Positions 1,873-8,570 of a DNA stretch of 33,059 nt are shown one piece after another. The position numbers and the translations under genes were made by a program. The DNA comes from Blastopirellula sp. (lineage in GTDB: Bacteria > Planctomycetota > Planctomycetia > Pirellulales > Pirellulaceae), in the NCBI GenBank assembly GCA_002701545.1, contig NZVR01000067.1, positions 8,924 through 41,982 of the forward strand, in the 5' to 3' direction. Below the pieces are notes generated by a model that saw only the letters and a program-made list of their open reading frames with translations, was not told the DNA's origin and searched no databases. The number at the start of each line of letters is the position of its first letter. The first letter of the stretch is position 1.

Positions 1873-4800
1873 ATGACGAAACGTACCTGGCTGAGCCTGA
1901 CCGTCGCAATGTTGTCCTTATCCGCTTTGTTGCTGACCACCGTACTGGTCCCGAATGCGACAAACTCGGGTGTCACCGCAGCTCCGGGAGCTCGAGCAAC
2001 GGGCAATGCAAAACCTCGCAAACCACTGACGGTCGGCCATCCAACGTTCTCCAGCCCCCATGCCTCGCCCATTACGGTTCACGGCGAAGACGTGTTCGTG
2101 GTCAACACTCCCGCCGACACACTCGATGTGATTGATGCCAAGACACGTAAGATCCGAAAACGCATCCATGTCGGTGTGGATCCGGTGAGTGTGGCAATGC
2201 GTCCCGACGGTCACGAGATCTGGGTTTCGAATCATGTTTCTGACTCGGTCAGCGTGATCGACAACCGTGCGGACAGCCCCAGTTACTTAAACGTCGTGGC
2301 AACGATTCAAGCGTACGACCCGGAAACCAAAGCCACCACCTTTGACGAGCCGATGGGGATTGCTTTCGCCAGCAACGACAAAGCATATGTGGCGTTATCG
2401 TCGGAGAACCAGATTGCTGTGATTGACGTCGCTTCGCATCGGGTGACCAAGCGTCTGCGGATTGCAGCTCAAGACCCTCGGGCCATCGCTGTCCACGACG
2501 GTCGCCTCTATGTGCTCCCCTTCGAGTCCAATAACAAAACGCAACTTTCCGGCGGCTCGCGCGACGATATCGATGGCGATCAGGTTACCTTCGATGCCTG
2601 GGAACATTCGATTCGTGTCAACAACGTCCTGTCGCTGGGACATGTGACAGACATCGTCAAACATCCACAAGTGCCGGACCGCGACTTGTTTGTTTTCGAC
2701 ACACAAACGGACGAATTGATCGACACAGTCGACACGCTTGGCACATTGTTGTACGGAATCACAGTGGACTCGCAAGGTCGTGTGTTCATTGCACAAACCG
2801 ACGCTCGCAACGAAGCCAATGGGCGTTCGGGAACGAAAAAGCACGGCATGAAAGAACTGGAGAACCGCGCGTTCCTGAATCAAATCACAAAACTTGAGTT
2901 TACGGACGGTGAAGCTCAAAAACCCAACTTCATCAACCTCGAACCGCTGCCACCGAAGCACCCCGAAAAAGGCATGGCGCTGGCAACTCCCTACGCGATT
3001 CAAGTCAGTGATGACGATTCGACCCTGGTTGCCGCGGCGGCAGGATCGGACAAGTTGTTCACCGTCGATGCCCGTACAGGTGAAGTCATGGGGCGCGTCG
3101 CGGTCGGCGCCGTGCCACGCGGCATTGCACTGGAAAACACTGCTGAGGGAACCCCCGCCACAGCCTGGGTCTACAACGCCGTTGCCAATACGGTTTCGCA
3201 GATTGATCTGACCGACACTCGCAAACCGAAAGTCTCCGGCTTTGTCAAACTGGATGACCCCACTCATCGCCAAGTCAAACTGGGACGCACCTGGTTTAAC
3301 GATGCAGACGCCTCGTCGACCGGTACGTTCTCGTGTGAAAGCTGTCACCCGGACAGTAATACCGATCAGCTGCTCTGGGTACTGGAAACACCCATTGTCA
3401 CTGGTGGCGATCAGATCATGCCGCGTTCGACCATGCCGGTTCGCGGCTTGCGTGACACCGCTCCCTTTCACTGGGACGGTGTGCTCGGTGATCCCTACGG
3501 TGGCAACAACAGTGCAAATATCTATACCTCGGTGGAACCAACCGCCGATGTGGAAGATCAAACAACCAGTTCGCGTCATCTGGTCGACGCAAGTCTCGGG
3601 GCTGTCCTGCGCGCCCATGGGGACGATCTTGTCAACGACGAAGGCAAGCAGGGTGCCTTTACGGCAGCCGAACGTGATGACCTGGCGGTGTACCTCCTGA
3701 GCGTTCCCTTTCCTCCCGCACAGCGACGTGCCTACGACAATGTGCTGACGGAAACGGCGCAACGCGGATTCCGACTATTTCATATCGATGGTGATAATGA
3801 TCCATCGCGAACCCGGCCCAATGTCTGTGGCAACTGCCATCGCATGCCGTTTTTGGTAAGCACCAACACGCCCGGCACGGGCATGGAAGCGCCGACGTGG
3901 CGCGGAGCATATGACCGCTTTTTGATCCTGCCTCAAGGTCGCTTGAACATCATCGAGTTTCCCTTCTACCGAAGTGTGGCAGAACGCGGACAGTCAGAAG
4001 AAGAAATCTGGCGGTTCTCATGGGGAGGGCGCCGTCGCTTCAACCCCGTCTGGAACATGGTCGTCGAAGGTAGCACCGGTTTCTCCGGTTCGTTCGCTCG
4101 CCAAGTCACCCTGCACCCCACATCCGTGCAGGATGATCTGACCGGGGACCTGTTGAACGCCCTCGAAATCTCCGCCGTCGAAGGTGGCATCGTCCTGGAA
4201 GGTGAAGGCGTACTGATCGACAACGACACAGCCAAGCCCGTCACCTTCCAATTCGACCCGACCTTTCAGGGAGGTGTCTACGTGACCCGCGATCGTGAGC
4301 GGCAAGCATTCACACGCAATAAACTCATGACGCTCGCAACCGAAGGCAAGTTCATCGGAACATTCACCGGTCGCCATGGCGAAAACGCAGATACAGAATC
4401 ACCCCAACCCGCACTCTGGACACTGGGGCCCATCGAACGACAACGCGGGCGACAGGAATTCCCGATCCTGCATCAGGACCAGAACACCATGTCCGTCAGT
4501 GGTCGTAACTTCGACGACGATGCCAGTCTGTACGTGGATGGCCGACGCGTCGAAGGCACTGTTGAATTCCAAGACGACGAACAAGAGCAGGTGCTGATCG
4601 AACTGGCGTCACTCCCAACTCCGGGAATGCACACACTGCAGGTGCAAGATCAACACGGAATGTTCAGTAACGACTTTATTTTTCATGTCACCGAAAATGA
4701 ACAAGCGGCTGCGGAACTGAAACGCAGTCTCGATGCCGTGCACGTTGATGTGCGTGAGGCGCTGTTCCAAGCCATTGCGCGCGGCGATGTCGACGGAGTG

Positions 4801-5223
4801 AAACGCAGACTCGGCAGGCAAGCTCGTCGCATCAATGAACGCCGGCCGTCCAGCGGATCCACACCGCTCAGCGATGCGGCTTTCCGTGGCAATCTCGAGA
4901 TCGTCAAACTTCTCGTCCAAAGGGGAGCCAAAGTCAACGAAACCAACCGTGACGGCAACACCGCTCTGGTCGGCGCTGCCTTCATGTGCCACACCGATGT
5001 CGTCCGCTTCCTACTGGAAAAAGGCGCTTCGACTTCACACAAGAACAATCGCAGGGAAACCGCCATCGACGCGGTCTCTTCGGCCTGGAGTGAAGAACTG
5101 GCCAGGTTCTACCAAGGGCTTGGGCAGTCAACCGGCGTGAAAGTGGACCTGGAGCGTCTCCAAGAAGAGAGACCGAAAATGGCCAAGCTGTTGCGTGAAC
5201 ATGCGGCGAAAGCCGCTGAATGA
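1873..5223 (+). CDS. YVTN propeller / two-haem cytochrome c / ankyrin fusion protein
   Basis: A 1116-residue exported protein. The start is supported by GGGAG 7 nt upstream of ATG and by a signal peptide (MTKR plus a hydrophobic run to about residue 30). Residues about 50-440 are YVTN-type propeller strands, such as VDVIDAKTRKI-like, VSVIDN, IAVIDVASHRV and FTVDARTGEVMGRVAVGAVPRGIA. A cytochrome c region follows with CESCH at 488-492 and CGNCH at 652-656, so two haem c groups are expected; FHWDG between them recalls the di-haem peroxidase-like cytochromes often joined to propellers. Residues about 860-940 resemble an IPT/TIG beta-sandwich. Residues about 960-1070 form ankyrin repeats (TPLSDAAFRGNLEIVKLLVQRGA and the next, TALVGAAFMCHTDVVRFLLEKGA). 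No membrane anchor follows the signal peptide, so haem and ankyrin parts should both be periplasmic. I infer a redox role; the substrate is unknown. Confidence 0.85.
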   Translation: MTKRTWLSLTVAMLSLSALLLTTVLVPNATNSGVTAAPGARATGNAKPRKPLTVGHPTFSSPHASPITVHGEDVFVVNTPADTLDVIDAKTRKIRKRIHVGVDPVSVAMRPDGHEIWVSNHVSDSVSVIDNRADSPSYLNVVATIQAYDPETKATTFDEPMGIAFASNDKAYVALSSENQIAVIDVASHRVTKRLRIAAQDPRAIAVHDGRLYVLPFESNNKTQLSGGSRDDIDGDQVTFDAWEHSIRVNNVLSLGHVTDIVKHPQVPDRDLFVFDTQTDELIDTVDTLGTLLYGITVDSQGRVFIAQTDARNEANGRSGTKKHGMKELENRAFLNQITKLEFTDGEAQKPNFINLEPLPPKHPEKGMALATPYAIQVSDDDSTLVAAAAGSDKLFTVDARTGEVMGRVAVGAVPRGIALENTAEGTPATAWVYNAVANTVSQIDLTDTRKPKVSGFVKLDDPTHRQVKLGRTWFNDADASSTGTFSCESCHPDSNTDQLLWVLETPIVTGGDQIMPRSTMPVRGLRDTAPFHWDGVLGDPYGGNNSANIYTSVEPTADVEDQTTSSRHLVDASLGAVLRAHGDDLVNDEGKQGAFTAAERDDLAVYLLSVPFPPAQRRAYDNVLTETAQRGFRLFHIDGDNDPSRTRPNVCGNCHRMPFLVSTNTPGTGMEAPTWRGAYDRFLILPQGRLNIIEFPFYRSVAERGQSEEEIWRFSWGGRRRFNPVWNMVVEGSTGFSGSFARQVTLHPTSVQDDLTGDLLNALEISAVEGGIVLEGEGVLIDNDTAKPVTFQFDPTFQGGVYVTRDRERQAFTRNKLMTLATEGKFIGTFTGRHGENADTESPQPALWTLGPIERQRGRQEFPILHQDQNTMSVSGRNFDDDASLYVDGRRVEGTVEFQDDEQEQVLIELASLPTPGMHTLQVQDQHGMFSNDFIFHVTENEQAAAELKRSLDAVHVDVREALFQAIARGDVDGVKRRLGRQARRINERRPSSGSTPLSDAAFRGNLEIVKLLVQRGAKVNETNRDGNTALVGAAFMCHTDVVRFLLEKGASTSHKNNRRETAIDAVSSAWSEELARFYQGLGQSTGVKVDLERLQEERPKMAKLLREHAAKAAE

Positions 5224-5751: not shown

Positions 5752-7038
5752 ATGAAACGCTTATCAACCACCGCTATGGCCCTTTCCCTCGCCGCAATGT
5801 GCCTGTTGCCGGCCAGCCTGTTTGCTCAGAAGGCGCGCTACCCATCCTTTAGCAAGTCGATGGCGAAACCGTCCTCTAGCCGTTCGATGTCGAAGCCATC
5901 CTTCAGCCGCTCGCTGTCGAAGCCGTCCTTCAGCCGGTCATTGTCGAAACCACCCACGACGAGCCGGTCATATGCAAAGCCGCCCACGACGAGCCGGTCA
6001 TTTGCAAAGCCACCCACGACGCGCCGGTCCCAACCGAGCAAGCCAGGAAACTTTCCTAGCATCCGCACGAATCCGCGATTGAGCCCTCAAGTCACCCGTC
6101 CGATTACTGTGACACCGCGAAGGCCACCGGCTACAAGTCCCGTTCCTAGCTTACGGGGAACGAATCCGAATACCTCAACCCCGCGAATCACGAATCCCAA
6201 TGTCTTGAATCCCCGGACACCCCCAACCTCGTCTCGCATCCCGAACTTGATGATCCGTCCCAACACCACACTGCCGCGCGTCGATTTGAATCGATTCAAT
6301 CCTGGCGTTCGGTTGCCGAACGGATCGCAACCGCGCATCACGATTCCTAACAAGCCGATGCCGACGCTTCGTGGCGATACAGCAATCCGCAACATCAAAC
6401 CGGACCAATCCCGATTGAATGGTTTGCGAAGGTTCGACTCGGTCGTTGGTAAGCTTGATTTGGCTGAGAATTTCAAGCCGGTCCCGCTGGACAACATCAA
6501 GGAAAGCCTGGAAGGTTTGAAAGATGCTCAGCTGAATGAACTCAAGTTACCCATGGGTACCAAGACCAAGACTGCCGCGATCCGTCACCTCGGTCTCCGT
6601 CCGATGTGCCACTGGTGGCTTGACTTCTGCATCGGTTGGCACTGGCACCACCACCACTGTCACTGGTGGGACATTTGCTACCTGCCTGGATACTGGAACT
6701 GCTGGACGCCTTGTTACTACAACGTCGTGTACTGTCCACCGCGTGTTGGTTACGTCGCCTGCAGTTGGTACTTTGGTGTCGAATGTGTCCTGATTCCAGA
6801 TATGGGATGCTACGGAATCCAAAAAGTAACGCCGAATTCACCTGCCGCCCTGGCTGGTCTACAACCCGGCGACATGATCAACAGCATCAATGGATTCGGC
6901 ATCGGAGAAGAGGGTATGTTGCAACGTGAAATCCAACGCTCGGGCGGACGCCTGCAGCTTGGCATCCTTCGCGATGGCGCAGCGGAACCTGTTCTGGTAG
7001 ACGTTTTCCTTCGCCGAGTGCGAACGCTGACGTACTAA
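5752..7038 (+). CDS. Secreted repeat / Trp-His-Cys-rich / PDZ-like protein
   Basis: A 428-residue protein of unknown function. Residues 1-25 are a clear signal peptide (MKRLSTTAMALSLAAMCLLP then ASLFAQ). Residues about 30-95 are imperfect 9-10 residue repeats of the kind SFSRSLSKP and PPTTSRSYAK, rich in Ser, Lys, Arg and Pro. Residues about 95-210 are a Pro/Asn/Thr/Arg-rich, probably unstructured stretch with repeated TPR-N-x-P-like words. Residues about 285-355 are extraordinary: about 70 residues with 10 Cys, 9 Trp and 7 His, including WHWHHHHCHWW. Residues about 351-425 resemble a PDZ domain (VTPNSPAALAGLQPGDMINSINGF matches the usual ligand-groove region). A hairpin terminator follows, so it is probably a single-gene transcript. 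I infer an envelope protein that binds metal or forms disulfides; nothing indicates a protease triad. Confidence 0.75.
   Translation: MKRLSTTAMALSLAAMCLLPASLFAQKARYPSFSKSMAKPSSSRSMSKPSFSRSLSKPSFSRSLSKPPTTSRSYAKPPTTSRSFAKPPTTRRSQPSKPGNFPSIRTNPRLSPQVTRPITVTPRRPPATSPVPSLRGTNPNTSTPRITNPNVLNPRTPPTSSRIPNLMIRPNTTLPRVDLNRFNPGVRLPNGSQPRITIPNKPMPTLRGDTAIRNIKPDQSRLNGLRRFDSVVGKLDLAENFKPVPLDNIKESLEGLKDAQLNELKLPMGTKTKTAAIRHLGLRPMCHWWLDFCIGWHWHHHHCHWWDICYLPGYWNCWTPCYYNVVYCPPRVGYVACSWYFGVECVLIPDMGCYGIQKVTPNSPAALAGLQPGDMINSINGFGIGEEGMLQREIQRSGGRLQLGILRDGAAEPVLVDVFLRRVRTLTY
5842..6032 (+). repeat. In-gene tandem repeats (Ser-Lys-Pro and Thr-Ser-Arg-Ser units)
   Basis: Coding repeats inside the PDZ-like protein gene. 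The first half has 27-base units encoding S-F-S-R-S-L-S-K-P variants and the second has 30-base units encoding P-T-T-S-R-S-Y/F-A-K-P. The DNA copies are nearly identical in places, such as CCCACGACGAGCCGGTCAT twice, which suggests recent unit duplication. Confidence 0.8.
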
Positions 7039-7251: not shown

Positions 7252-7324
7252 AGCGGGTGAGGGGATTCGAACCCCCGACATACAGCTTGGGAAGCTGTCA
7301 CTCTGCCAACTGAGTTACACCCGC
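7252..7324 (-). tRNA. tRNA-Gly (anticodon CCC)
   Basis: Read on the minus strand: acceptor 5' strand GCGGGTG (7324-7318) pairs with CACCCGC (7259-7253), and the discriminator base is T, usual for bacterial glycine tRNAs. The D arm contains ACTCAGTTGGCAGAGT. The anticodon stem ACAGC/GCTGT encloses the loop TTCCCAA, giving anticodon CCC, which reads GGG. The T arm is GGGGGTTCGAATCCCCT. CCA is not encoded. A perfect TATAAT lies 12 nt upstream of the mature 5' end. Confidence 0.95.
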
Positions 7325-7336
7325 AAACACTCGTAA

Positions 7337-7478: not shown

Positions 7479-8570
7479 ATGGAAGCCGGAATTGTTGGGC
7501 TACCCAATGTTGGCAAAAGCACGCTTTTCAACGCCCTGACCTGTTCCGTGTCGGCGCAAAGCGAAAACTATCCGTTTTGCACGATCGAACCCAATGAGGG
7601 CATCGTCAACGTACCCGATGCTCGCCTGGAACGGATCACTCGCTATATCCAACCCAAAAAAGTCATCCCCGCCATGTTGAAACTGGTCGACATCGCTGGC
7701 ATCGTCAAAGGCGCCAGCGAGGGGGAGGGGTTGGGCAACAAGTTTCTCAGCCACATTCGGCAAGTGGACGCAATCATTCAGGTCGTGCGGTGCTTTGAGG
7801 ATCCTGATGTGACGCATGTCGCCGGATCGGTCAATCCGCTGGCCGATATCGAAACGATTGAAACCGAGCTCATGCTGGCTGACATTCAGACGCTGGAAAA
7901 CGCCTTGCCAAAAGCCCAGCGAACGGCGCGGAGCGGAGACAAGGACGCCAAGTTCCTGATTGCCACCATCGAAAAACTGATGGCTCACCTGGCTCAAGAT
8001 CAGCCCTTGCGCACGCTGTCGTTGACCGACCCGGAAGCCAAAGCCATCAGCAGCTACGGCCTGATGACTGCCAAACCGATTCTGTATGTCGCCAATGTCG
8101 ATGAAGACGATCTGGCAGGAGAACACGAGCTCGTCCAACAAGTGCGTCAACACGCCGAGCACTCCGGGGCGGGAGTGGTCCCTGTCTGTGCCAAGGTCGA
8201 AGCTGAGATTGCCGAACTGGACGAGCAGGACCGAGCCGAGATGTTAGAGGCGGTCGGCCTACAGGAAGCAGCCTTGGGAGTCCTGGCGCGCGAAGCCTAC
8301 CGCACATTAGGTCTGCAAAGCTACTTCACAGCAGGCGAGAAAGAAGTACGTGCCTGGACCGTCCCCATTGGCGCGACTGCGCCTCAAGCAGCAGGTGTGA
8401 TCCACACCGACTTCGAACGCGGATTCATTCGCGTCGAAGTCTACTCCTTGGACGACTTGGAAGAGCACGAGAGCGAAAAGGAGATTCGTGCGGCGGGCAA
8501 ACTCCGCGTGGAGGGCAAAACCTACCTGATGCAAGACGGCGACATCTGCCATTTCCTGTTCAACGTCTGA
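7479..8570 (+). CDS. ychF: Ribosome-binding ATPase YchF (Obg-family P-loop protein)
   Basis: A full-length 363-residue YchF/OLA1-type protein. The G1 loop is GLPNVGKS at residues 7-14, switch and G3 motifs follow ([17 protein letters not shown] near residue 70), and the G4 position is NVDE at 206-209. This replaces the NKxD of true GTPases and is the known reason why this family prefers ATP. A coiled-coil insertion (about 130-200) and a C-terminal TGS domain (about 278-362, with [10 protein letters not shown] at the end) complete the usual architecture. Members bind ribosomes and have been linked to translation and oxidative stress responses. The ATG has AAAGGA about 9-10 nt upstream. It is followed convergently by nusB and preceded by a divergent tRNA, so it is probably monocistronic. 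Confidence 0.97.

Follow-up and report, generated by a model that had tools for sequence, protein, structure and literature searches.

The window, the 33,059-nucleotide stretch of Blastopirellula sp. DNA analysed here, contains an open reading frame (ORF) at 5752-7038 on the plus strand. It encodes a protein of 428 amino acids which is predicted to be exported. The following features were assigned:

5752..5829, plus strand: signal peptide, residues 1-26 (sequence reading, not tool-predicted)
5830..6429, plus strand: basic disordered linker, residues 27-226 (composition)
6430..6600, plus strand: pre-module segment, residues 227-283, FDSVVGK..KPVPLDNIKESLEGL.. (homologue comparison, AF2)
6601..6765, plus strand: Trp/Cys/His module, residues 284-338 (composition, conservation)
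6613..6618, plus strand: W288-W289, the sole module residues invariant across 46 homologues
6637..6669, plus strand: WHWHHHHCHWW, residues 296-306, part of a lineage-specific insert (direct reading)
6691..6714, plus strand: YWNCWTPC, residues 314-321 (long-form conservation)
6712..6735, plus strand: C321-x6-C328 Cys pair, common to long and short forms (conservation)
6766..7035, plus strand: HtrA/DegP-type PDZ, residues 339-428 (Pfam, family profile, AF2 fold)
6766-6780, plus strand: carboxylate-binding loop WYFGV, residues 339-343 (xPhiGPhi loop)
7018..7035, plus strand: C-terminal tail, residues 423-428, ending RTLTY-COOH, proposed PDZ ligand (conservation)

The signal peptide reads MKRLSTTAMALSLAAMCLLPASLFA; cleavage would fall approximately after ASLFA, and no lipobox was seen in it by eye. 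The linker contains 37 Lys plus Arg and only 3 Asp plus Glu, with 37 Pro, 31 Ser and no Cys, Trp or His; SFSRSLSKP and PPTTSRS repeats lie within this low-complexity region. Most homologues also have basic linkers. The pre-module segment, about 57 residues in length, is recognisable in the long-form Pirellulaceae relatives (see below) and is probably helical, as AF2 places helices there at low confidence. Neither a protease nor any other domain was matched outside the PDZ region by Pfam or NCBIfam. Identity as an HtrA/Deg serine protease was rejected because the trypsin-like protease domain is absent by both collections. Literature searches turned up no description of this protein.

There is no conserved operon, and gene neighbours are not kept beyond one genus; in that genus the flanking genes include those for FG-GAP, TIM-barrel and methyltransferase proteins. 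A search for carriage of the gene on plasmids gave no match. Elsewhere in the window, positions 1873-5223 encode an 1116-residue protein in which a YNCE-type beta-propeller and a MauG-like di-haem peroxidase region are combined, unusually, with ankyrin repeats at the C-terminus. A tRNA-like sequence is found on the minus strand at 7257-7330, between the PDZ gene and a YchF-like GTPase gene at 7479.

Composition, borders and conservation of the module

The original prediction pointed to the density of Cys, Trp and His in residues 285-355, and the counts are exact: 10 Cys, 9 Trp and 7 His, to which 8 Tyr can be added. Cys, Trp and His account for 26 of the 71 residues. The maximum in 71-residue segments of background ORFs is 14, the background being 247 non-homologous ORFs, each 300 amino acids or longer, from the retrieved loci rather than a full proteome; at background composition, the binomial P for such a density is about 3e-16. 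The cluster had also been described as lying next to a PDZ-like domain. It does directly abut a PDZ, but the PDZ begins at about W339 and not after residue 355. The Pfam match begins only at residue 356; however, the alignment of the family profile with DegP PDZ2 and DegQ already starts near the WYFG column, and the first PDZ strand in the AF2 model is residues 343-348, which together place the start at about W339. The last 17 residues of the original interval (339-355) belong to this HtrA-type PDZ, and the module is therefore residues 284-338, a stretch of 55 residues with 8 Cys, 8 Trp, 7 His and 6 Tyr.

The expectation that no described domain has this pattern held. Twelve module sequences gave no Pfam match and the module gave no match among PDB sequences, in both cases with E up to 1; every NCBIfam match of the protein falls in the PDZ region and none in the module. 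AF2, run on three sequences, leaves the module at pLDDT about 30-50 with no usable model, so that structural comparison speaks for the PDZ alone. The module is undescribed though conserved; the exported single-PDZ architecture is already known.

Homologue searches, which partly overlapped, covered about 1,870 genome slots and found 46 distinct module-bearing members, which belong to the Pirellulales or to a further family of that class (f21). Whole-domain searches gave many PDZ-only matches, which were excluded by requiring the WW module. The distribution is patchy: within the family to which the window belongs, 16 of 241 genomes have a full match. There are two forms of the module: 20 members, including the window's protein, have the long form and 26 have the short form. 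The long form carries an extra insert with C309, Y314, W315, C317 and W318, which is absent from the short form. In a tree built from the PDZ only, a branch with support 90/85 separates the 26 short forms from the 20 long forms; L020 and L045 are the long forms nearest to the short ones. The Pirellulaceae long module is fused to this PDZ in 12/12 cases, and no other context was found. Two genomes contain two family copies each, G219 (L015 and L045) and G985 (L127 and L133); the G219 copies are clearly different subtypes. In the short form L100 (genome G698), a strongly Cys/His-rich segment, e.g. CHTRRRRDCHTQQHCHTG, replaces the basic linker, and the conserved tail end is missing.

Conservation differs by residue type. 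W288 and W289 are present in 46/46 homologues, C321 in 41 and C328 in 42, and the C-x6-C spacing is kept in both forms. Among the 20 long forms, Y314, W315 and W318 are found in all, C317, C321 and C328 each in 19, C309 and W305 each in 18, C286 and H304 each in 17, and H297 in 13. Across homologues His is far more variable than Trp or Cys; within WHWHHHHCHWW only His304 and Trp305 are well conserved, and the HHHH run occurs in two of the 46 members, the window's protein and its closest relative (L044). Conservation of the Cys and His positions, on which the original prediction depended, is thus found for Cys but for the most part not for His. In the module core, dN is 0.05-0.14 where dS is >1; judged from these sequence comparisons, the module is under strong purifying selection, comparable to that on the PDZ. 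The conservation and dN/dS pattern indicates that the Trp/Tyr/Cys frame is functional and that most of the His residues are not.

PDZ domain and C-terminal tail

Three Pfam models match the PDZ above their cut-offs: PF17820 (30.2 bits; cut-off 27), PF13180 (28.1; 27) and PF00595 (24; 23.2). The PDZ fold matches DegP when the AF2 model is compared structurally, and the Gly of the WYFGV loop is invariant (46/46).

Beyond the last PDZ strand, the tail is constant in length, without gaps, in 45 of the 46 members. Its final residue is Phe or Tyr in 39 members and its next-to-last residue is Ser in 32. An aromatic end (Phe or Tyr) is found in 2 of 44 other PDZ-containing ORFs and in about 6% of ORFs overall. 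Since the 46 members share ancestry, they count as a single conserved family rather than as 46 separate occurrences of such a tail. The AF2 model does not place the tail. The HtrA-type PDZ domains of DegS and AlgW bind C-termini which end in Phe, such as YQF and WVF (PMC8545111). The presence of a ligand-like tail on a PDZ protein suggests self-association or a shared recognition code.

Alternative readings of the module

The original prediction left open whether the cluster was a copper, zinc or haem site or a disulfide-knotted aromatic core. Trp, Tyr and Cys, including the C-x6-C pair, persist over deep divergence, and the disulfide/aromatic core is therefore tentatively favoured over a metal site. 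L128 and L134 each lack both C286 and C309, as would be expected if these two Cys formed a disulfide. The Cys losses in L016 and L126 do not resolve cleanly into pairs; L016 is without C303 and C321, yet keeps C286, C309, C317 and C328. Odd core Cys counts (12 of the 20 long forms have 7, and four short forms have 3) mean that not every Cys is in an intramolecular disulfide. They would also allow free thiolates. The module could instead be a metal-binding domain in which Cys and His304 or His297 bind Cu, Zn or Fe, with the PDZ delivering the module to partners. The presence of 7 His and 10 Cys in 71 residues and the retention of His304 in most long forms are consistent with such a site, as are the His/Gly repeats directly ahead of the module in short forms (median His in the preceding 200 residues 11.5, against 2 in long forms) and the His-rich lead-ins of single-PDZ relatives. 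However, the HHHH run is confined to two members, the Trp/Cys frame is retained in L045 and L020, which have 0-3 His, and no known metal motif was matched in Pfam or PDB sequences. Cys residues in exported proteins are also more likely to be oxidised. A metal-binding domain is considered less likely. The relatives in question are the small exported proteins L049, L135 and L136 (genome G005), in which a lead-in rich in His or in Arg/Tyr precedes a single W[YF][LF]G PDZ and the Trp/Cys module is lacking. His enrichment near this PDZ type recurs, without conserved positions; it is possible that the His-rich stretches before short-form modules have a looser metal- or pH-sensitive role.

Small Trp/Cys-rich domains often bind glycans, and the module could be an aromatic patch that binds carbohydrate or cell wall, with the PDZ and tail merely dimerising it. 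The invariant aromatics (WW and YWxCW), the signal peptide and the basic linker would suit this function, but no Pfam carbohydrate-binding model was matched and we consider it unlikely. If the cluster were a product of compositional drift where a disordered linker ends, with no function of its own, this would explain why the insert is variable and missing in short forms and why the flanking linker is of low complexity; such a reading is very improbable given a core dN far below dS and a Trp/Tyr/Cys frame that is essentially invariant across the 20 long forms. Least probable of all is the type of fusion known from the magnetosome proteins MamP and MamE, in which a c-type haem or redox domain is joined to a PDZ. 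The PDZ does lie beside a Cys/His-rich module, and the MamE PDZ scores weakly against the protein in NCBIfam, but direct reading of the whole 428-residue protein finds no CXXCH motif. Covalent c-type haem is thereby rejected, and with it this version of the haem site that had been suggested.

Possible role and relation to known systems

The reading that we prefer, tentatively and with somewhat less than even confidence, is an exported non-enzymatic scaffold or adaptor composed of a basic linker, a disulfide/aromatic module and a PDZ which binds aromatic C-termini, possibly its own. It would act in the cell envelope or extracellular matrix of planctomycetes, where the long basic linker would extend the protein's reach and let it adhere electrostatically to anionic polymers of the envelope. 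The 55-residue module would form a small disulfide-held fold with an aromatic core (WW and YWxCW), containing at least the C321-C328 disulfide; the long form would add pairs among C286, C303, C309 and C317. The HtrA-type PDZ is expected to bind free C-termini whose last residue is aromatic. Since the protein has a tail of its own, fixed in length and usually ending [S/T]-[F/Y]-COOH, the most likely partners would be other copies of itself, assembling head to tail, or else exported proteins that end in a similar way.

It is also conceivable, though doubtful, that the secreted Trp/Cys(/His) domain, PDZ and tail together make an envelope or matrix protein that polymerises with itself and is crosslinked by disulfides or metal. 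The crosslinks would run through the odd Cys and the His residues, in a domain seen so far in planctomycetes only. The planctomycete cell envelope is unusual, and little is known of its matrix proteins. This conserved family of exported proteins, with an undescribed module and a PDZ that may polymerise via the protein's tail, offers a concrete candidate envelope scaffold.

The PDZ is of the same type as those of HtrA, DegP and DegS (Pfam PDZ_6 and PDZ_2) and has its xPhiGPhi loop ahead of the first strand; the resemblance of the protein to TIGR02037 is confined to the PDZ. It differs from these proteins in having no protease domain, a single C-terminal PDZ and an aromatic ligand-like tail. The small single-PDZ planctomycete proteins L049, L135 and L136 likewise have a signal peptide, a low-complexity lead-in and a W[YF][LF]G PDZ, but not the WW/C-x6-C module. 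MamP consists of a PDZ and two magnetochrome domains, which are defined by CXXCH, and forms a PDZ-mediated dimer (PMC3971196). Although the module described here has no CXXCH, lies N-terminal to its PDZ and has no sequence relation that we could find to those of MamP, the latter is the nearest architectural parallel: a PDZ fused to small Cys/His-containing modules.
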